This document shows, piece by piece, positions 2,195-21,712 of a stretch of 21,847 bases of DNA. Origin of the DNA: a virus; IMG/VR virus record IMGVR_UViG_3300037635_002605, positions 1-21,847 of that record; one strand, written 5' to 3'. Position numbers and translations under genes: made by a program. The notes beneath the pieces were generated by a model, which did not search any database, was not told where the DNA came from, and saw nothing but the letters and a program-made list of their open reading frames with translations. Position 1 is the stretch's first letter. The number at the start of each line of letters is the position of its first letter.

Positions 2195-2761
2195 TTAATT
2201 AGTTTCATCTGTAATATCTTTAAAAGGATTATCAATCATCATTTTTAAGTGTTGTTTTATTTTTTTAATGTTAAGAAAGACTGTACTCTTTGATATACCA
2301 ACTTCTTTACTTAGTTCATCCATAGTTAAATCACTAAATGCATAGAGTTCATATAACTTAGCACTACTCCACATACGCGATGATTTAAGAGTATCTAATT
2401 CTTTTTTGATACAATCATATGCATACTCTAATCTTTTATCCTCACCTACGTTGTATATGTTATCTGGCTTATCTTTCCACTCACTAACATATGTTGTTTT
2501 GTTTTCTCGTTTGATATAATTTATAAATCTAGAAGATATAAAGTTATAACAATACAACAAATTAAAAGAATCATTAAAAAATATTTTAGGATTTTGTTTC
2601 TCTGCTAGATACACATATAAATCTTGTACCAAATCTTGTGATACTTGTTTATCTTTAGATTTATTATATGCTACTGCAGTTAACCATTGATGGTGGTTGT
2701 TATACAATACACCCAATCGTTTGTTAATCTCTATATGTAGTGAACCACTATCTATTGTCAT
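2195..2761 (-). CDS. Sigma-70/ECF-like RNA polymerase sigma factor
   Basis: The 188-residue protein has the two-domain layout of a small (ECF-like) sigma factor. A region-2-like helix pair lies at residues 24-85, with QWLTAVAYNKSKDKQVSQDL and VQDLYVYLAEKQ as the RNA-polymerase-binding part. A region-4-like helix-turn-helix lies at about 130-172, with LTMDELSKEVGISKSTVFLN as the DNA-recognition part. The linker is charged. Such factors redirect the host RNA polymerase to phage promoters. It sits upstream of bS21 and the terminase genes, and a 15-base motif recurs ahead of late-type genes, so it is the best candidate for a late switch protein. A plain HTH regulator without sigma activity cannot be excluded, because region 2 is divergent. 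Confidence 0.7.
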   Translation of the reverse strand: MTIDSGSLHIEINKRLGVLYNNHHQWLTAVAYNKSKDKQVSQDLVQDLYVYLAEKQNPKIFFNDSFNLLYCYNFISSRFINYIKRENKTTYVSEWKDKPDNIYNVGEDKRLEYAYDCIKKELDTLKSSRMWSSAKLYELYAFSDLTMDELSKEVGISKSTVFLNIKKIKQHLKMMIDNPFKDITDETN

Positions 2762-3995: not shown

Positions 3996-4018
3996 CTATA
4001 AGTATTTAGTTTTTATTT

Positions 4019-4276
4019 TTATGTGTTTACCTGAAGAGTATCCCATTTATCTATAAGGTGTTCGTGTAACCACTCCCACTCTTCCTGCCTACTCAGTAAC
4101 TCATTATAAGTTTTGTCTCTCTTACCTGTTAGATAAAGTTGTGCATTCTTCTCGTGTTGCTCCATTTCATCATCATAATATTTTATCTGATGGTTTATTA
4201 ATACAAATAACTTGCGTAAAGATAATAGAACATCTTCTGCCAATCCTTCATCATTTAAATGAAACTTATCTTTCAT
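4019..4276 (-). CDS. Hypothetical 85-residue helical protein
   Basis: Unrecognised. The protein is highly charged and helical. Its first part (residues 1-35) is amphipathic with NDEGLAEDVLLSLRKLFVLI, and its second part is a likely coiled coil rich in E, Q, W and H (YYDDEMEQHEKNAQLYLTGK and RQEEWEWLHEHLIDKWDTL). Its ATG at 4276 overlaps the stop of a 48-residue microprotein gene by 11 nt, so the two are translated together. No cysteines, signal peptide or membrane segment are seen. Small helical proteins beside a replication gene often act as helpers or host-takeover factors, but nothing here shows which. Confidence 0.7.
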   Translation of the reverse strand: MKDKFHLNDEGLAEDVLLSLRKLFVLINHQIKYYDDEMEQHEKNAQLYLTGKRDKTYNELLSRQEEWEWLHEHLIDKWDTLQVNT

Positions 4277-4412
4277 TTTTATCTATTCCTAAGTGCTCTT
4301 CTATTCTTTCGACTCGTTTAGTTAACCTGTATAATGCTGATGAGTACTCTACTTTACGTTGCTCATACTGTAATTCATCTATTATTTCTCTCAACCTTTC
4401 TTCTTTAGTCAT
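4266..4412 (-). CDS. 48-residue coiled-coil microprotein
   Basis: A short gene that would be missed by a length cutoff. It starts with the ATG at 4412, which shares one base with the TAA stop of the replication-type protein (TAATG). It ends 11 nt inside the next gene. Translation begins MTKEERLREIIDELQYEQRK and continues with EYSSALYRLTKRVERIEEHLG. It is almost all charged heptad-like helix, consistent with a small coiled coil. The same TAATG junction occurs at 10341 and 14796, which supports it as a real coupled gene. Function is unknown; position suggests a replication accessory role, by inference only. Confidence 0.65.
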   Translation of the reverse strand: MTKEERLREIIDELQYEQRKVEYSSALYRLTKRVERIEEHLGIDKNER

Positions 4413-5128
4413 TATACTGCCTGATTTATACTGATTACATTATTAATTGCTCTAGTCCAATTATTTTTCTGAGATTCTGTAAAGTTTAATTTTTTATAAA
4501 CCTCTTCAATACCACCATATTCTTCTATTTCTTGAAAACTTAATTTAAATTTACTAACATTTTCAAATTGTATTAAATCATCTAATAATCTTTTTAAAAT
4601 ATTATTTTCCTTAACTATGCTACTGTCAGTATTTTTAATAATTTCTTTTTCTTTATTTCTTTTATTATTATTTCTTTTATATGTCGGTTGATTATCAACT
4701 GACTTGTTAGGTGATTTTCCACTGTCTAGTAAGGTGATATTCACCTCACTTGTTGGTTGAAGATTAACTGTCTGAGGTATCTCTGGCTTGACCGATGAAT
4801 TTCCACTGTCAAGTGAGAGGAGTTCTTCTACCTTATTTAATAATACAAAATAATAATTCTTAGCAGGCATTTTTTTCTTTTCAACTGTAACCACACCAGC
4901 TTCTTTTAATTTCTTAATAGAATCTTTGATATGATGGTTAGTTAAACATAATTCTTTTTCAATCTGTTTATATGATTGAAAGAATTCGTTACCATGAAAT
5001 ACTTTAGTTTGTAAATCAATAAAATGTTGCAACAGTAGAGTAGTTCTCAATCCTAATTGCTTGTGTAGATGTTTATTGATTTGCCAGTAAGCGTTGTTAC
5101 TGATTGTGCGTGTGATGTGTTTTGCCAT
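4412..5128 (-). CDS. Winged-helix replication initiator-like protein
   Basis: A 238-residue protein that looks like a phage replication initiator or replisome organiser. Residues about 10-100 form an N-terminal winged helix: RTTLLLQHFIDLQTKVF, then QSYKQIEKELCLTNHHIKDS as the helix-turn-helix, then KKLKEAGVVTVEKKKMPAKN as the wing. A polar low-complexity linker (105-165) holds two LDSG(N/K)S copies and two (T/S)V..QPT copies, and a charged helical C-terminal domain follows (170-238). This layout of DNA-binding head, repeat-containing linker and partner-binding tail is that of lambda-O/DnaD-like proteins. It is the first gene behind the leftward early promoter at 5157-5195, which fits early replication. 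A transcription regulator is the alternative. Confidence 0.65.
   Translation of the reverse strand: MAKHITRTISNNAYWQINKHLHKQLGLRTTLLLQHFIDLQTKVFHGNEFFQSYKQIEKELCLTNHHIKDSIKKLKEAGVVTVEKKKMPAKNYYFVLLNKVEELLSLDSGNSSVKPEIPQTVNLQPTSEVNITLLDSGKSPNKSVDNQPTYKRNNNKRNKEKEIIKNTDSSIVKENNILKRLLDDLIQFENVSKFKLSFQEIEEYGGIEEVYKKLNFTESQKNNWTRAINNVISINQAV
4686..4818. repeat. Direct and inverted repeats inside the replication gene (possible origin)
   Basis: Two near-copies of TTTCCACTGTC(T/A)AGT(A/G)AG lie at 4716-4732 and 4800-4816. Two copies of GGTTGA(T/A)(T/G)ATnAACTG lie at 4686-4701 and 4755-4770. The first of the latter contains the perfect palindrome GTTGATTATCAAC (4687-4699). Between them lies AGGTGATATTCACCT (4732-4746), another perfect palindrome. 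All are in the linker region of the initiator-like gene, where lambda-type phages keep origin iterons. The copies are in frame (84 and 69 nt apart), so a protein-level duplication is the other explanation. Confidence 0.35.
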
Positions 5129-5156
5129 TGTTTATAGTTTTCCTAATTTGTTAATA

Positions 5157-5195
5157 CAAATATACGAAATATATTTGATATATCCAAGTCTTTTC
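5157..5195 (-). promoter_or_regulatory. Early-type Bacteroidota promoter for the replication operon
   Basis: Read leftward: TTG at 5187-5185, a 20-nt spacer that holds GATATATC, and TATATTTG at 5164-5157, which is a perfect Bacteroidota -7 box (TAnnTTTG). The 20 bases from 5195, GAAAAGACTTGGATATATCA, are identical to those at 5951-5970. The transcript would start about 20-25 nt before the ATG at 5128. Confidence 0.8.
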
Positions 5196-5238
5196 TTATA
5201 TATTTTTCAACATAGTTGTCAGACCGTTCATATATAAG
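5195..5238. repeat. Nested inverted repeat upstream of the leftward promoter
   Basis: CTTATATA (5195-5202) and TATATAAG (5231-5238) form perfect 8-bp outer arms. CAACATAGTTG (5208-5218) is a smaller palindrome inside. It abuts the upstream edge of the leftward promoter, a likely place for an operator. Low complexity makes chance pairing possible. Confidence 0.3.
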
Positions 5239-5269
5239 TATTAAGAAAAAAAGTTTTCGTATATTTTTT

Positions 5270-5323
5270 AAAAGAAAAGACCACCCTGAAGTTGAAGGTT
5301 GTAACAGTCACTCGGGTGGTCTT
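5270..5323 (-). terminator. Leftward Rho-independent terminator after the nucleotidyltransferase gene
   Basis: Read leftward, AAGACCACCC (5323-5314) pairs perfectly with GGGTGGTCTT (5286-5277) and is followed by TTCTTTT. The loop is 27 nt. There is no T-run on the rightward side. It isolates the nucleotidyltransferase gene from the replication operon promoter just beyond it. Confidence 0.8.
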
Positions 5324-5350
5324 AATATAAAGAATACTAAATTAGGAATA

Positions 5351-5370
5351 GGCTCAATGGCAGTCGAGCC
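5351..5370 (-). other. Second hairpin in the 3' region of the nucleotidyltransferase transcript
   Basis: GGCTC (5351-5355) and GAGCC (5366-5370) form a 5-bp G/C stem around a 10-nt loop in otherwise very AT-rich DNA. With the terminator it makes a structured, roughly 150-nt untranslated tail. A small RNA made from the 3' end is possible; the hairpin resembles a tRNA D-arm but no other tRNA part is present. Confidence 0.35.
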
Positions 5371-5421
5371 AAAAACATCTAGTATATATATATATTATAA
5401 CACTTGGTTTAGTTTTTGTAT

Positions 5422-5919
5422 TTAAAATTCTGATAAGGGTATACCTGTAAAGTTATATCCTCTATTTTTTCCTTTGTACCAGTTCTTACTTGGTTCATAA
5501 AAATCATATCTCCACAGTTGAGGAGCAATCTGTTCTACCTTATCTGCATTAAAAATTGTATGATATGTACCACCAAGATATTCTTTGTAGAACTCTTTAT
5601 CAGGACGAATTTTATAAAAAGGTTTAAACGATTCAGAGTACCATTCTGATGTATATATAATATCAATCAATAGTTCGTGCTCAAATCCCCTTGTAATACA
5701 CTCTGTAAAGAGTTTAGAGAGGACATCTAATGGTGGTTGAGGATTATATACTATTACATCTACATCCCATGTAGGAGAGTGTTTTTCAACTGTATTACCC
5801 ACCAAGTATAAAGGTATATCAGTGTCAATACTATTAAACCATTCTCGTATCTTTTCATCAGTAGGTCTTAACCAAGGTTGTGTAGTTTCAACTCCACCTG
5901 CTTTGCAATAAAACTTCAT
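5422..5919 (-). CDS. Nucleotidyltransferase-fold protein (pol beta superfamily)
   Basis: A 165-residue protein with the signature of the pol-beta-like nucleotidyltransferase superfamily: LYLVGNTVEK (G41-N42-T43), then after 11 residues DVDVIV (D52 and D54), then a third acid in HELLIDIIY (D86). In the family these acids bind two metals and transfer a nucleotide to a protein, RNA or small molecule. The glycine is followed by N instead of the usual S or G. The rest (aromatic, KFYKEYLGGTYH and WRYDFYEPSKNWYKGKNRGY) has no match I know. The gene stands alone: a promoter-like motif touches its ATG, a terminator follows, and both neighbouring operons have other promoters. This layout suggests an accessory (moron-like) gene. 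The substrate is unknown. Confidence 0.7.
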   Translation of the reverse strand: MKFYCKAGGVETTQPWLRPTDEKIREWFNSIDTDIPLYLVGNTVEKHSPTWDVDVIVYNPQPPLDVLSKLFTECITRGFEHELLIDIIYTSEWYSESFKPFYKIRPDKEFYKEYLGGTYHTIFNADKVEQIAPQLWRYDFYEPSKNWYKGKNRGYNFTGIPLSEF

Positions 5920-5933
5920 ATTATTATAACAAA
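5919..5933 (-). promoter_or_regulatory. Candidate late promoter motif touching the nucleotidyltransferase start
   Basis: Leftward TTTGTTATAATAATA, with a perfect TATAAT core. Its last base is the A of the ATG at 5919, and the protein has no other methionine. If it is a promoter, the transcript is leaderless or nearly so. Confidence 0.5.
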
Positions 5934-5950
5934 TAAATAAAAATAAACAC

Positions 5951-5989
5951 GAAAAGACTTGGATATATCATTTTTTTTTCGTATATTTA
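5951..5989 (+). promoter_or_regulatory. Early-type Bacteroidota promoter for the rightward cassette
   Basis: TTG at 5959-5961, a 20-nt spacer with GATATATC and a T-run, and TATATTTA at 5982-5989 (one mismatch to the Bacteroidota -7 box). It shares 20 identical bases and TTTCGTATATTT with the promoter at 5157-5195. The first ATG is about 38 nt downstream of the box. Confidence 0.8.
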
Positions 5990-6026
5990 CATAGTAAATG
6001 AGATTAATTAAATAAAACTTAAAATA

Positions 6027-6122
6027 ATGGATTATATACTAACAATATTTGTAGCAGTAATGCTTTTCAGTAAAACATTTTGGATAGAACTTATTAAAGG
6101 TCTATTTGATAAAAGAAAATAA
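6027..6122 (+). CDS. 31-residue membrane microprotein
   Basis: The first gene behind the rightward early promoter. Translation gives MDYILTIFVAVMLFSKTFWI followed by ELIKGLFDKRK. Residues 3-21 form one hydrophobic helix, and the C-terminus is basic, so it would sit in the inner membrane with its tail in the cytoplasm. It is followed after 3 nt by the next small gene and then by a secreted protein. Tiny early membrane proteins of phages often act on host membranes, superinfection or lysis timing, but no family is recognised. Its reality rests on position, clean start and TM pattern. Confidence 0.55.
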   Translation: MDYILTIFVAVMLFSKTFWIELIKGLFDKRK

Positions 6123-6125
6123 ATT

Positions 6126-6239
6126 ATGACAATAATAAACAAGTTAACAGGTAGAGATGTATCTTCAGAGTATCTAGCTCTTATGGAAGGTATAATCACC
6201 AACGATGAATTCGAATTAATAACAATGACAATTAAATAA
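6126..6239 (+). CDS. 37-residue acidic microprotein
   Basis: An ATG at 6126, 3 nt after the previous stop, opens a frame of 37 codons: MTIINKLTGRDVSSEYLALM, then EGIITNDEFELITMTIK. It is soluble, acidic and probably helical, with no cysteine or membrane part. The next gene starts 7 nt after its stop. Tight spacing on both sides argues for translation as part of the cassette. No family is recognised; a host-takeover role is possible but not shown. Confidence 0.55.
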   Translation: MTIINKLTGRDVSSEYLALMEGIITNDEFELITMTIK

Positions 6240-6246
6240 ATAAACA

Positions 6247-6726
6247 ATGAAACAATTAATGATGGTCTTGATGATGACCTTAATATCATTCACAACTTAC
6301 TCACAAACTGTGGGTGTATCCGCTAACTCATCTGAACTAGGAGCTGGTTATGGTTTCTATATAGAAGATGATGATAGTAAGTTTGGATTTGAATATCAAA
6401 AAGGAGCAACTATCAATTCAGACCCATTACAAGTAGAACAATACTTGAATGGTGAAATAGATTCATATACTGCTGGTAGTTCTTTTTATAATATAGGTGC
6501 TTATTGGTATGTATATCAAACTAATAGAACCAAGTTTTTATGGGGATTAGGAGCACAAAGTGAAAAAGAATTTAATACAACAGGTGATATTAAATCAATG
6601 AATATATATAGTAACATAGGATTTAAGTATCAACTAGATAAACTAGTTTCTTTCAAAGCAAGTTATCAATATGCACCTCATGGTGGTATTGATTCTATTG
6701 TAATTGGAATGGGATTTGATTTATAA
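6247..6726 (+). CDS. Secreted outer-membrane beta-barrel-like protein
   Basis: A 159-residue protein with a signal peptide: MKQLMMVLMMTLISFTTYSQ, with likely cleavage after YSQ as is common in Bacteroidota. The mature part alternates polar and aromatic/hydrophobic residues in short strands with glycine turns (ELGAGYGFYI, FGFEYQ, YNIGAYWYVY, FLWGLGAQ, SNIGFKYQL, FKASYQY). It ends with IVIGMGFDL, as outer-membrane barrels do. The size suits an eight-stranded barrel. It is the last gene of a rightward early-type cassette and stands outside the structural operon, so it is more likely a host-envelope modifier than a virion part. Receptor masking or superinfection exclusion is an inference. Acquisition from a host genome is plausible. 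Confidence 0.65.
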   Translation: MKQLMMVLMMTLISFTTYSQTVGVSANSSELGAGYGFYIEDDDSKFGFEYQKGATINSDPLQVEQYLNGEIDSYTAGSSFYNIGAYWYVYQTNRTKFLWGLGAQSEKEFNTTGDIKSMNIYSNIGFKYQLDKLVSFKASYQYAPHGGIDSIVIGMGFDL

Positions 6727-6774
6727 CACCTATATACAATAAACAACTTCTCATAATAGATGTTTTGCCAGAAC

Positions 6775-6806
6775 ACCTCATCATCTTAACTCAATGGTGG
6801 GGTTTC
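6775..6806 (+). terminator. Possible rightward terminator of the early cassette
   Basis: ACCTCATC (6775-6782) can pair with GGTGGGGT (6796-6803) over eight positions in the rightward RNA, using two G-U pairs, with a 13-nt loop and TTTC after it. In the leftward RNA two positions mismatch. It lies in the 125-nt convergent gap between the barrel-like gene and the structural operon. The T-run is weak. Confidence 0.4.
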
Positions 6807-6851
6807 TATATGTCGTACCTAGATTATATTGATAGTATGACAAAATGTCAG

Positions 6852-7139
6852 TTACTTTTGTGGAATACAATTCGGGACTTTTCGTCCATTCTTAATCTTC
6901 ATACCATATTGTTCGTATCCATCAGTACAAGGAGCTTTTAATTCTTCTTTACTAGGGTATAGATTAATATCATTTATAGCTGATAAGACTCTTTGTTGTG
7001 AACTCATATTTCTGTTTTGATATATAGAGTAACAAATCCCGGCTGCAACATCTGCACTCTTACCATATCCTATCTCAATAGGAATACATCTTTCTACGAA
7101 CTGAGATTCTGATTCTCCTGATTTAACTTTTATCGGCAT
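6852..7139 (-). CDS. Small cysteine-containing structural-region protein
   Basis: The last gene of the structural operon, 95 residues. It has two recognisable blocks. ESESQFVERCIPIEIGYGKS with AAGICYSIYQ (about 9-41) is of the type often found near head proteins and proteases of Bacteroidota phages, usually in the form SExEFxxRC...AVCYS. PCTDGYEQYGMKIKNGRKVPNCIP (about 70-93) has a proline/cysteine pair seen in similar small phage proteins. Four cysteines could pair or bind metal. It follows the 117-residue basic protein after a 62-nt gap. I infer a capsid-associated role from these motifs and place; no enzyme motif is present. Confidence 0.65.
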   Translation of the reverse strand: MPIKVKSGESESQFVERCIPIEIGYGKSADVAAGICYSIYQNRNMSSQQRVLSAINDINLYPSKEELKAPCTDGYEQYGMKIKNGRKVPNCIPQK

Positions 7140-7201
7140 AAGTACTTGGTTTTGTAGTTATTGTTTTCTTTTTGGGACAGTATGTAGTTAGTAGTGTCAT
7201 C

Positions 7202-7555
7202 TTATTTTACTTTGTAAAATTGATTATTAATCTTAACCTTACTAACAGTTCCTAATCTGATTGTGCGCCAATCTTGATTTGTTTGGGAGTACACTACCCA
7301 CATATTTTGTCTACGAAGTGTTCTCCTACGTTTTACAACACCAGGTGATGAGTTAGGTACTTTATCTCTTGTTTGTTCCATTCTTCTCATACCAACACCA
7401 TTTAACTTAGTACTCCATACTCTCATAGAAGTAAACTTAGTGTTCTTAATTAAATCTGTCATCTCTCTACGAGTAAGTTCAATTGCAGGTGCAGCAAAAT
7501 GATAAGTAGTATCTACTACTTTATTCATTACCTTTCTCATTAAATTATCTAACAT
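7202..7555 (-). CDS. Basic 117-residue structural-region protein
   Basis: A strongly basic protein. The first half is helical (residues 5-45, with ELTRREMTDLIKNTKF), a central segment is arginine-rich (GVVKRRRTLRRQNM, about 72-85), and the C-terminal domain has MWVVYSQTNQDWRTIRLGTV and ends KINNQFYKVK. The last part resembles a small SH3-like beta domain found in other phage proteins, from memory and without a name. It follows the prohead protease after 31 nt. Its start codon has a true Shine-Dalgarno-like AGGAG, unlike the other genes here. High charge suggests DNA or RNA contact in the capsid, or a tail-adaptor role; both are inference. Confidence 0.7.
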   Translation of the reverse strand: MLDNLMRKVMNKVVDTTYHFAAPAIELTRREMTDLIKNTKFTSMRVWSTKLNGVGMRRMEQTRDKVPNSSPGVVKRRRTLRRQNMWVVYSQTNQDWRTIRLGTVSKVKINNQFYKVK

Positions 7556-7564
7556 ATCTCTCCT
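7556..7564 (-). promoter_or_regulatory. Shine-Dalgarno-like ribosome binding site
   Basis: Leftward AGGAG at 7564-7560, then AGAT, then ATG at 7555. I checked the leaders of the other genes and saw only A/T-rich sequence or coupling overlaps. Bacteroidota genes normally lack such sites. Confidence 0.6.
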
Positions 7565-7586
7565 ATTCTATTTTTATCCGAACCAC

Positions 7587-8747
7587 TTAATCTTTAGGGT
7601 GAGTCTTACAAGGCATATAATATGTACCTTGGTCTACTGTTTCATGTGGATGACTTCCGCTACATCCTATCATCTCTGCAAACTCTTCAGCCATCTCTTC
7701 TGTTGGAAACATAATCTTTCTAACATCATTTAAATTAGTAGAACCACTAATCATTTCATTTGATTCACCTGGGTATGATGAATTAGGAATTGATATTTCA
7801 TTTTCTTCTAACTCTCCTAGTTCTCTTAATTTATTTTTACTCCAACCCAATGCAGCTAATCCACCCCAAAGTAAATAACTTATGTTACCACAAGCTTCAC
7901 TATCGTTTTGTTTATCTCTATACACCTCTTCTGCTCTTGATAAATAAGAATGCATTCTTTTTATCGTCTCTAATGAAATTGGTCTACCTTGTGCTAATTG
8001 TTGTGCTCTTACTTTGCCAACAGGTGTTGCGCATTTGTTACCACTCTTCTCGTTTAGTTCAATACCTTTCTTAGCATTGTTCTTAACACCTTGAGGATAA
8101 TCTGAATAAGATTCCATCTCTACTCTCTTACCACCTTTGTATCTTTTATCTTCTTTAACTACTCTTCTTATTTCGTTAAGTAAGTATTCTGCTTCTTGAT
8201 TAAGTATATCTTCTAATACATCTTCTTTACTAGCTTGAACTAAATCATGTGAGAATAAACCTTCTATACTGAATCCTTTTACTTCACCATTCTTTACATA
8301 ATCTTTCCATATATCATCGTTATCAACTTTAAACATACCCATCCATGTTCCAACAGGTACATTTAATCCATAGGAGTTAGATTTATCTAATTTGGATGTC
8401 TTTATCCAACTCTCTACTAAAGTTACACCAGATACTTTCTTTTCGTGTTCTAACGTTGATTTAGCTTGATATCCTTTCTTAAGATATCCTTGTGCTAGTT
8501 TTTCTATTGTTTCAGGTTTAAAGAATACCTCATAAGGTTGTCCTTCTCCATCTATACGAAGAATCTTTTTATTTGGTATAAGAACAGGTCCTACTACCAA
8601 TCTTTTTTCGTTATCTATCTTTTCAAACTGAACTTTCTCTTTATCAAACCATACGAAATTACTTTCTATGGCTGGGTCTTCTACTAATGAAATAGCAAAT
8701 ACCTCATCTAAAAATTCATCATCTATGGTTAATTCAAATAGTTTCAT
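7587..8747 (-). CDS. XkdF-like prohead serine protease with extra C-terminal domains
   Basis: A 386-residue protein. Residues 1-170 match the XkdF/S78-like phage protease: LVVGPVLIPNKKILRIDGEG (50-69), PETIEKLAQGYLKKG (78-92), STLEHEKK with candidate catalytic His101, VTLVESW (108-114), GTWMGMFKVDNDDIW (133-147), and GEVKGFSIEGLF with candidate Ser160. Residues 210-310 form a second domain with YPQGVKNNAKKG, CATPVGKVRAQQLA, ISLETIKRMHSYLSRAEEVY and CGNISYLLWGG, common in phage head proteins. A third part, 346-386, has GCSGSHPHE and TYYMPCKTHP, a possible metal site. The protease should cleave scaffold or capsid during head maturation. It lies downstream of the tail genes instead of beside the portal, which is unusual. 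Confidence 0.82.
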   Translation of the reverse strand: MKLFELTIDDEFLDEVFAISLVEDPAIESNFVWFDKEKVQFEKIDNEKRLVVGPVLIPNKKILRIDGEGQPYEVFFKPETIEKLAQGYLKKGYQAKSTLEHEKKVSGVTLVESWIKTSKLDKSNSYGLNVPVGTWMGMFKVDNDDIWKDYVKNGEVKGFSIEGLFSHDLVQASKEDVLEDILNQEAEYLLNEIRRVVKEDKRYKGGKRVEMESYSDYPQGVKNNAKKGIELNEKSGNKCATPVGKVRAQQLAQGRPISLETIKRMHSYLSRAEEVYRDKQNDSEACGNISYLLWGGLAALGWSKNKLRELGELEENEISIPNSSYPGESNEMISGSTNLNDVRKIMFPTEEMAEEFAEMIGCSGSHPHETVDQGTYYMPCKTHPKD

Positions 8748-8781
8748 ACTAATTTAACAATTTAATTTTAATTTATACTTT

Positions 8782-10341
8782 TTATCCAAACGAAGCTGCT
8801 GAGTTCGTTCTTCTATCTAATGCTTGTGTACTACTAACTTGTGTAGATACAACATATGCTTGTACAGGTCTTTGTGATGATGCTGCTATTGTTTGTGAAA
8901 TCTGTGAACCTGTATCACCTTCCATTGCAGCTGCAGTTTGTATTTGTGGAACTGTTGTTTGAGGTACAGATGGAGCTCCTCCTCCACCACCACCACTGGC
9001 ACCTCTAAGATTAGTTCCTGGTGGTTTTGGTACTTTAGTAGAAATAATCTTTCTAACTTGTAATAAACCTCCTGCAATAACAACACCTGCTGCAATACCA
9101 CCCCATGGTGGAGGATACGTTGCTAATGCTTTCGTAGCACCAAGATATGTGTTTATAGTTGCAGATGCAACTGCTAGAGCTTTACCAGCAATAGTATTTT
9201 CACCCACCATCTGTGCAACTGAACTAAGAGCTGAACTAATCACCATCAGTCTAGCTTCTTCTTCCTGCTCCGTCATTTGTAGTGATACCTCTGATGTCTG
9301 TTCTTGTGTATTAAGTGATAATTCAGAGAAATCTGTTTGAGTCTGAATCTTAGCTGCACCTGTTCTCTGTGCAGTTTCTATTTCAGATACACTAGATAGG
9401 TTATCATAGTTTCTTCTAATTTCTAATAAATCACCGTAATATTCTTGTTCTAATGCAGTAAAGTTTTCATATCCAGCTTGTTTAAGAATTGCGTATTCTT
9501 CATTGAATCTCGTTTCTCTTTCTATTAACTGTCTATCTCTTTCACTTAACAAAGATAACTCAGCTTCTAATTGTATAGCAGCTGCTTGTTCTCTAATAGC
9601 TTTAATCCTATCAACTTCTCGTTGAGTAGCATCTATTCTTTTCTGTGCCTCTTCTTCTGTTTTCTTTGTTAAATCTTCTTGTCTTTTTTCTTCATCATCA
9701 TATGCTTCTTGTAATACTGTTGATGATGCTCTACTTGCTTCTTCTATCTTTTCTGATGATATACCTAAGAACTTAGCAAATCTATTAAATCCACTAGCAA
9801 CTTTCTCTATTACCATTGCGAAGTTTTCAAAGATAGGTAATGCTACTTTTTCAATTACCGCAAAAACAGGTCCTAATATCTTACCAAATGCTGCTGATAT
9901 TCTATTTAAAGTTTCTTGTCCTTCAGATGTTTTACTTAATGATTCTCTCATCATAAGGAATGCACCAGCAATTGCAGTTACAACGGCAATGATTGGATTA
10001 GCCATAAACACTTTTAATGTTCCTCTTAATCCTTCCATTGATTGTCCTACCAATCCAATAACACCTGGTTGAGCTCCTAACGCTTCTGTAAATCTAACAG
10101 ATGCTATTTCTGTATCTGCTAAATCATCTTTTAAATTAGATAGTTCTTTTGATAATTCCTTAAACTCTTTAGATTTAGGGTCAATCTTTCCTAACGTATC
10201 TTGTGTTTTAGATATCGCTTCATTAAGGTTATCAAACTCACCAATGGAAGTAGAAATAGTTTTGTTAAGCAAATCAACATTCTTGCCTCCTTCAACTTCG
10301 ACATCTATTACTGCACTATATGTGGTTGTGTTTTCAGCCAT
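8782..10341 (-). CDS. Tape-measure-like tail protein
   Basis: A 519-residue protein with tape-measure features. It has an N-terminal helical part (residues 20-80, NLNEAISKTQDTLGKIDPKS), a hydrophobic helix at about 108-131 (FMANPIIAVVTAIAGAFLMM), and more hydrophobic helix at 153-185. A long charged coiled coil spans about 200-320. A second hydrophobic stretch at 386-432 contains YLGATKALATYPPPWGG and AAGVVIAGGLLQVRKI, which is typical of this family, and a Gly/Ser/Thr/Pro tail follows. At 519 residues it is short for a siphovirus tape measure. It sets tail length and may form part of the DNA channel in the host envelope. Its ATG shares one base with the stop of the microprotein before it (TAATG). 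Confidence 0.72.
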   Translation of the reverse strand: MAENTTTYSAVIDVEVEGGKNVDLLNKTISTSIGEFDNLNEAISKTQDTLGKIDPKSKEFKELSKELSNLKDDLADTEIASVRFTEALGAQPGVIGLVGQSMEGLRGTLKVFMANPIIAVVTAIAGAFLMMRESLSKTSEGQETLNRISAAFGKILGPVFAVIEKVALPIFENFAMVIEKVASGFNRFAKFLGISSEKIEEASRASSTVLQEAYDDEEKRQEDLTKKTEEEAQKRIDATQREVDRIKAIREQAAAIQLEAELSLLSERDRQLIERETRFNEEYAILKQAGYENFTALEQEYYGDLLEIRRNYDNLSSVSEIETAQRTGAAKIQTQTDFSELSLNTQEQTSEVSLQMTEQEEEARLMVISSALSSVAQMVGENTIAGKALAVASATINTYLGATKALATYPPPWGGIAAGVVIAGGLLQVRKIISTKVPKPPGTNLRGASGGGGGGAPSVPQTTVPQIQTAAAMEGDTGSQISQTIAASSQRPVQAYVVSTQVSSTQALDRRTNSAASFG

Positions 10342-21262: not shown

Positions 21263-21293
21263 TAGGATATATCAAATATTTTTCGTATATTAG
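21263..21293 (+). promoter_or_regulatory. Early-type promoter for the right-hand endonuclease
   Basis: TAG at 21263-21265 (TTG in the other two), a 20-nt spacer with GATATATCAAATAT, and TATATTAG at 21286-21293. The spacer length equals that of the promoters at 5157 and 5951. The ATG at 21299 begins only 6 nt after the box, so the mRNA would be leaderless or nearly so. Confidence 0.7.
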
Positions 21294-21298
21294 TGTAT

Positions 21299-21712
21299 AT
21301 GAAAGTTTGTACAAAGTGTAACGTAAATAAAAAAAGAACTGAATTCTTTAAGAAAAAAGATAGACCATTAGGTATTAGTTCTCATTGTAAGTTATGTACC
21401 TATGAATATAGGAACAAAAAAAGAAAACAAAACCCTCAAAAATCTAGAGATTATCATAATAGTTGGAGACATAATCAGAAAGATGGTAAATGGTCTGTGT
21501 ATATGTTAATAAACGCTAAAGAGTATGTTGGATATACTAACAACGAGTGGAGAAGAATGGCTGAACACAGAGCTCTAGGTTATGATACTACTGATTATAG
21601 AGTATTGATGAAGTGTGATACAGTTGAAGAAGCAAAAGAACTAGAAGAATTATTACACGATATGGGTTATCCAGGAAAGTATGGACATAAAAAATCCCCT
21701 ACCAAAAGGTAA
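21299..21712 (+). CDS. GIY-YIG endonuclease with N-terminal zinc finger (right copy)
   Basis: A 137-residue homing-type nuclease, read against the structural operon. The zinc finger uses C4 and C7, then C30 and C33, with KKRTEFFKKKDRPLG between. The GIY-YIG core has WSVYML (the GIY position, 65-70), EYVGYT (75-80), R85-R86 and H90, with the acidic helix EEAKELEELL after it. Architecture and motifs match the left copy at 3468-3995. I use the ATG at 21299 and not the GTG at 21293, because the GTG lies inside the promoter -7 box. The gene sits between two structural transcription units, with its own early-type promoter, and its last codons form one arm of the terminator of the opposing gene. This is a free-standing selfish gene. 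Confidence 0.85.
   Translation: MKVCTKCNVNKKRTEFFKKKDRPLGISSHCKLCTYEYRNKKRKQNPQKSRDYHNSWRHNQKDGKWSVYMLINAKEYVGYTNNEWRRMAEHRALGYDTTDYRVLMKCDTVEEAKELEELLHDMGYPGKYGHKKSPTKR

Follow-up and report, generated by a model that had tools for sequence, protein, structure and literature searches.

What a short block of genes does for a phage when it points against almost the whole genome around it is the question raised by the locus described here. The locus lies in a stretch of 21,847 nucleotides (the window, positions 1 to 21,847 of IMG/VR record IMGVR_UViG_3300037635_002605), a 21.8-kb phage record with a gene map that runs almost wholly leftward. The window belongs to a virus of marine-type Bacteroidota bacteria. 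Phages of Bacteroidota are abundant in the sea and in the gut, and to our knowledge superinfection exclusion and early genes have been little studied in them. A sequence-only reading of the window had proposed that a rightward cassette at 6027-6726 is expressed early and alters the envelope of the host.

A rightward cassette in a variable slot

The leftward genes follow the order portal region, tail genes, tape measure, XkdF-type protease, and two small genes up to the cassette, and continue beyond it with a 165-aa gene, the replication-initiation gene, small genes, a sigma-like protein, and the terminases (Table 1). The label "portal" was assigned from position and sequence, without a family match. 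Within this map, the cassette was the only multi-gene rightward unit, as the sequence-only reading had claimed. No lysogeny gene was found among the genes read in the phage. The sigma-factor-like protein might switch the late genes, which do not carry the early motif described below.

Table 1 Features of the window that bear on the cassette, with position, strand, and basis or remark
Feature	Position	Strand	Basis or remark
Sigma-factor-like protein	2195-2761	-	PHROG RNA polymerase sigma factor, E 1e-7
Replication-initiation gene	4412-5128	-	PHROG replication initiation O-like, E 2e-10
Motif copy 2	5159-5187	-	1 mismatch; 59 nt upstream of the replication-initiation gene
165-aa conserved protein, left flank of slot	5422-5919	-	Divergent from cassette
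Motif TTGGATATATCA-N4-TTTTTCGTATATT, early-type promoter of cassette	5959-5987	+	0 mismatches to consensus
Palindrome ATTTAC-ATA-GTAAAT, possible operator	5986-6000	.	Overlaps -7 element
31-aa single-pass membrane peptide, basic C-terminal tail	6027-6122	+	ORF, codon usage, hydropathy
37-aa acidic cytoplasmic peptide, without relatives	6126-6239	+	ORF, codon usage
159-aa exported protein, predicted outer-membrane beta-barrel	6247-6726	+	ORF, codon usage, signal peptide, classifier
95-aa conserved protein, right flank of slot	6852-7139	-	End of structural module; convergent with cassette
Motif copy 3	21263-21291	+	1 mismatch; upstream of the GIY-YIG gene
GIY-YIG gene	21299-21712	+	Other rightward gene, solitary, at contig end

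The three ORFs of the cassette are separated by gaps of 3 and 7 nt. When codon log-odds were derived from 16 of the window's other genes, the proposed frames scored 0.31 (31-mer), 0.43 (37-mer), and 0.45 (159-mer), the remaining five frames over the same stretches did not exceed 0.10, and -0.12 was obtained for an antisense 85-aa ORF; these values have to be read with the caveat that some plus-strand ORFs antisense to known genes elsewhere reach 0.41. All three starts are preceded by A at -3, which is a positive determinant in Flavobacterium according to PMC6847099. The first product has a single hydrophobic segment from residue 4 (17-residue mean 2.04) followed by a basic tail, and the second has 6 acidic and 3 basic residues (net charge -3). 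Both the 31-residue membrane peptide and the 37-residue acidic peptide named in the sequence-only reading were thus recovered. The region 4000-9000 contained no intrinsic-terminator-like sites, and the stretch around a hairpin at ~6770-6807 folded no better than shuffles. A terminator common to the cassette and the convergent 95-aa gene was therefore unsupported.

The cassette occupies a slot between two conserved genes. The 165-aa protein on its left matched no family of Pfam, PHROG, or NCBIfam, and its G-N...D-V-D pattern is one that we take to recall a small nucleotidyltransferase. Relatives were collected via the protease, for which 80 of 246 loci were kept, and via the two flanking genes, of which the 165-aa gene yielded 3 loci and the 95-aa gene 46; the whole-record search took 41 of the 80 protease loci, the protease alignment held 18 sequences, and slot content was read in ~10 loci. 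In the loci read, the slot is a hypervariable island of opposite-strand genes unrelated to the cassette, with seven genes in L010, four main genes in L005, at least four in L110, a 196-aa GIY-YIG-like gene in L007, and one 141-aa gene in L008. It is nearly empty in L006, with ~360 nt between the flanks. None of the slot genes read in relatives had a signal peptide. In relative G005, both contig ends fall within the slot, so this record covers almost the entire genome, and the island spans the junction of its ends.

The cassette itself was found only in the window and in a sister contig that is 99.8% identical over 12.5 kb. A look for it in related phages, a check proposed in the sequence-only reading, thus gave nothing beyond this sister; the slot of the relatives holds unrelated genes or almost nothing. 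The sister contig differs at 5932-5957 and 6018-6019 and shows no difference in 5958-6017, promoter included. Its 31-mer carries L22F and I23V, by which hydrophobicity is kept. Twelve of the 21 rows of differences between the two contigs fall in 5932-6093, around the promoter and the 31-mer, which suggests a recombination patch. Elsewhere in the gene order, relatives G003, G004, G005, G008, and L060 carry a membrane protein of 56-60 aa after the protease that the window lacks at that place.

A promoter motif common to dissimilar phages

A conserved block emerged when we aligned the sequence ahead of the 165-aa gene from the window with that from four other contigs. It is a 29-base motif, TTGGATATATCANNNNTTTTTCGTATATT, often with a palindrome after it, and the window contains three sites at ≤1 mismatch. 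Markov shuffles keeping three-base content gave an expectation of 0.15 matches per window at ≤6 mismatches. A generic sigma-70 scan did not set the cassette site apart from background (28 sites found vs 26.6 expected), and neither did a bare TTG/TAnnTTTG scan (74 found vs 64.4 expected). Unlike both generic scans, the long motif alone separates the cassette promoter site from background. No motif site was found before the virion genes of the window.

The cassette promoter combines a Bacteroidota-like -33 element, TTG, and a -7 element, TATATTTA, with a spacer of 20. As given in PMC6847099, the Bacteroidota -33/-7 consensus is TTTG/TANNTTTG. Since the motif, with TTG and TATATTTR, comes near this consensus, it is plausibly readable by the host primary polymerase. 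Perfect 6-bp palindrome arms were present at 57 of 116 motif sites, compared to 5 of 116 with shuffled downstream sequence; this count and the base frequencies left out the 18 of 134 sites without an exact TATATT, and sites in related contigs are non-independent. The additional conserved spacer and the palindrome lying over the -7 element suggest an operator.

An exact scan placed the motif in 45 IMG/VR stretches, and the same block precedes most island genes of the relatives. A gene was found directly downstream at 74 sites, and these genes formed 48 clusters. Family searches (PHROG or Pfam), which took 15 of the 48 clusters, returned products including a UvdE endonuclease, a PD-(D/E)XK exonuclease, a primase, a polynucleotide kinase, and clamp-like proteins. 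The sequence-only reading had called the cassette promoter early-type, and this is upheld, with a stronger case than had been claimed, by the same motif before the window's replication initiator and before replication and repair genes of dissimilar phages. One further downstream gene (L198) encodes an exported lysozyme-like protein; as this gene also bears the motif, the motif is no proof of timing and the class is not purely replicative. Altogether, early expression of the cassette is probable.

Among 395 Bacteroidota genomes, none contained the motif at ≤2 mismatches. At ≤3 mismatches, it occurred in 4 of 397 genomes vs 3 of 397 for a reversed control pattern, i.e., at background; the two samples overlap partially, and the true host may be missing from them. 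Two of the four host-genome matches precede similar P-loop genes and may sit in mobile elements. A blastn search of the promoter against annotated phages matched 51 records, 45 of them from Pseudomonas, with a listed E of ~1. Most of these matches were weak and fell on Pseudomonas jumbo phages, and we took them as chance.

Motif and palindrome are common to phages that differ widely in genome size and in gene content (L158-L202). The more general find may be this promoter family common to dissimilar phages. Due to its chance-level occurrence in host genomes and its position before replication and accessory genes, the motif could serve as a simple marker by which early genes are recognised in phages of this group that have not been cultured.

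The 159-residue exported protein

The third product of the cassette has a signal peptide (residues 1-19) that ends in TTYS and leaves Q20 as the mature N-terminus of a chain of ~140 aa. This conforms to the Q-rule for signal peptide cleavage in Bacteroidota, with Q at +1, as described in PMC5837995. The protein is thus signal-peptide-bearing, as had been claimed.

The same reading had also called the protein barrel-like, and here the evidence was divided. The classifier that we trained had 29 Bacteroidota PF13505 barrels as positives and, as controls, 272 proteins from phages of this group; a thirtieth barrel locus (L225) was kept out of training, since the ORF chosen there lay on the incorrect strand. 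With residue-pair features, the cross-validated AUC was >0.998 and the 159-mer scored 0.70-0.81, exceeding all 272 control phage proteins, a number that overstates independence since the controls are partly mutual orthologues. Composition alone was weaker, with 6 of the 272 controls scoring as high. Applied to 70 cellular ORFs beside the training barrels, the classifier scored 15 as high as the 159-mer; all 15 were barrel-like by eye, and a signal peptide was visible in 14. Of 1781 ORFs examined, 13 were flagged as exported by a Q-type or lipobox signal, and the 159-mer scored highest among these. A C-terminal alternating pattern, picked after the sequence of the protein had been seen, occurred in the 159-mer alone among 284 proteins scanned.

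Strand alternation, family matches, and fold prediction stood on the other side. The strand-alternation count was 3 vs 3.2 in shuffles, which counts against a barrel as far as it goes. Searches of Pfam, PHROG, NCBIfam, and PDB gave no family or structure match; the sole Pfam match at E ≤1 was DUF6705 (E 0.21), which fails the cut-off, and PF13505 and DUF2490 gave no match to the 159-mer at E ≤10. The hhalign comparison with the barrel family was weak (28.9% over 34 columns; mature chain 2.1%; best of the 272 controls 1.4%). Structure prediction, which the sequence-only reading had named as a check, drew mostly antiparallel strands, but the two single-sequence AlphaFold models were unusable at pLDDT 38.5 and 37.7. 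A fold search with the pLDDT-38 model against PDB and BFVD returned no match at E ≤0.001. Homologues in viral contigs, genome contigs, phages, and plasmids were limited to the sister contig, and there is therefore no functional conservation to lean on. Matches in Bacteroidota genomes (1 in 108 and 2 in 395 at E ≤0.01) were at chance level for a per-genome E-value and were rejected. Considering composition, residue-pair pattern, C-terminal pattern, and the Q-rule signal peptide together, a barrel topology is probable for this protein.

Exported proteins were also seen in other motif-bearing phages. One early-motif contig encodes an exported Q-rule DNA/RNA non-specific endonuclease (L181:972-1598, minus strand; PF01223, E 1.6e-28), another possible exclusion tool. 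A 103-kb motif-bearing contig encodes a 135-aa exported protein that ends in GLGLSYKLK and looks like a small barrel (L160:5600-6007, minus strand); its similarity to the 159-mer was not significant (blastp E 0.10). In larger phages, predicted lipoproteins lie near or in motif-driven stretches (L168, L169, L172, L183, and L185), one of them with FG-GAP repeats.

Possible functions and known counterparts

We propose that the cassette is an early accessory operon encoding an envelope barrel for superinfection exclusion, a reading that we hold as a whole to be possible while falling short of probable. The operon would sit in a hypervariable opposite-strand island of a Bacteroidota phage, between the end of the structural module and the 165-aa gene, and its three genes would be transcribed from an early promoter of phage type that the primary RNA polymerase of the host can use. 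The 159-mer would be exported via Sec, cut before Q20, and probably inserted into the outer membrane as a small (~8-stranded) barrel. The 31-mer would reside in the inner membrane, its basic tail pointing inward, and the 37-mer in the cytoplasm. Made ahead of the virion proteins, the barrel could alter or occupy the surface and make it harder for further phages to reach the receptor or deliver their DNA, and the 31-mer may form a second layer at the inner membrane.

The variable slot, the ORFs, the signal peptide of Q-rule type, and the promoter family can be read from the sequence itself, and the barrel topology, the early timing, and the exclusion function are inferred. An envelope role combined with early expression is likely. 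Receptor masking or superinfection exclusion, the two purposes suggested in the sequence-only reading, fits the anatomy and is plausible. Exclusion is the likeliest single purpose, although we advance it tentatively. Two points make it the preferred guess: lytic phages are known to make exclusion proteins early (PMC9586334), and the slot resembles a conflict island. As no exported slot protein was seen in the relatives read, exclusion would be private to this lineage. Among the literature titles listed for possible precedents, none pointed to a barrel-type exclusion protein from a Bacteroidota phage.

Small barrels have diverse roles, and the 159-mer resembles ordinary Bacteroidota OMP_b-brl proteins in composition, and nothing links it to adsorption. 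It might therefore serve as an early envelope-maintenance or uptake factor (a small stabilising barrel, a channel, or a lipid-modifying enzyme) that keeps the cell productive and leaves other phages unaffected. We consider this rather unlikely, as a rapidly exchanged island without relatives fits conflict genes better than housekeeping. The restriction of the cassette to two nearly identical contigs and the nearly empty slot of L006 would also suit recent cargo with little effect on the phage that is only briefly kept. Such cargo is quite unlikely, given that the codon usage is clean, the genes of the operon are tightly spaced, and the promoter is conserved.

Lysis genes are commonly arranged as a membrane peptide next to an exported protein, and neither an endolysin nor a holin was recognised in the window or, by eye, among the genes of the nearly complete G005. 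In a lysis module, the 31-mer would be the holin- or pinholin-like component, and the 159-mer would help to breach the outer membrane. However, the promoter is common to the cassette and replication-type genes, and cassette-free relatives must lyse too. The membrane protein that the relatives encode by the protease is missing here, but its position differs from that of the cassette. We judge a lysis function quite unlikely. The 159-mer could instead be a beta protein of the periplasm or surface, other than a barrel, and plug or bind a host receptor in the manner of Llp of T5 and Cor of T1. These two are small exported exclusion proteins that act on an outer-membrane receptor (PMC9586334), and the fold models do not prove a barrel for the 159-mer. 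Against this stand the absence of cysteine, and thus of a lipobox, from the 159-mer and the classifier and C-terminal pattern, which favour a barrel, so that we regard a non-barrel protein as unlikely.

Seen more broadly, dissimilar marine Bacteroidota phages might use one phage-specific early promoter-operator module, with the cassette as a plug-in for two-layer superinfection exclusion, an idea that we consider doubtful. Exchangeable islands would feed new early genes into this module (TTGGATATATCANNNNTTTTTCGTATATT plus the palindrome at -7), and the cassette would send its barrel to the outer membrane and its microprotein to the inner membrane. If the reading of the cassette as an early envelope operon is right, it would offer a three-gene test of early-infection surface change.

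Compared with phage morons, the cassette is alike in having its own promoter (5959-5987), an opposite orientation, and presence-absence variation in a fixed slot; it differs in that no terminator was found and in that the slot of the relatives is a multi-gene early island and not a single inserted gene. Lom of lambda (Ail/Lom family) and the Lc porin of PA-2 are phage-encoded outer-membrane barrels, which come from enterobacterial temperate phages and belong to known families. In contrast, the 159-mer, although a predicted barrel, has no Pfam match of the Ail/Lom kind. With Bacteroidota OMP_b-brl proteins (PF13505), it shares the signal peptide, the residue-pair pattern, and the C-terminal strand, whereas it is unmatched by this family even at E 10 and its mature chain of ~140 aa is shorter than most. 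Llp of T5 and Cor of T1 are lipoproteins, and the 159-mer, a predicted barrel, has neither a lipobox nor a cysteine in its 159 residues. In common with Llp and Cor, it is a small exported phage protein with early-type expression from a phage without a lysogeny gene among those read, and it is proposed to act at the outer membrane on access to the receptor.
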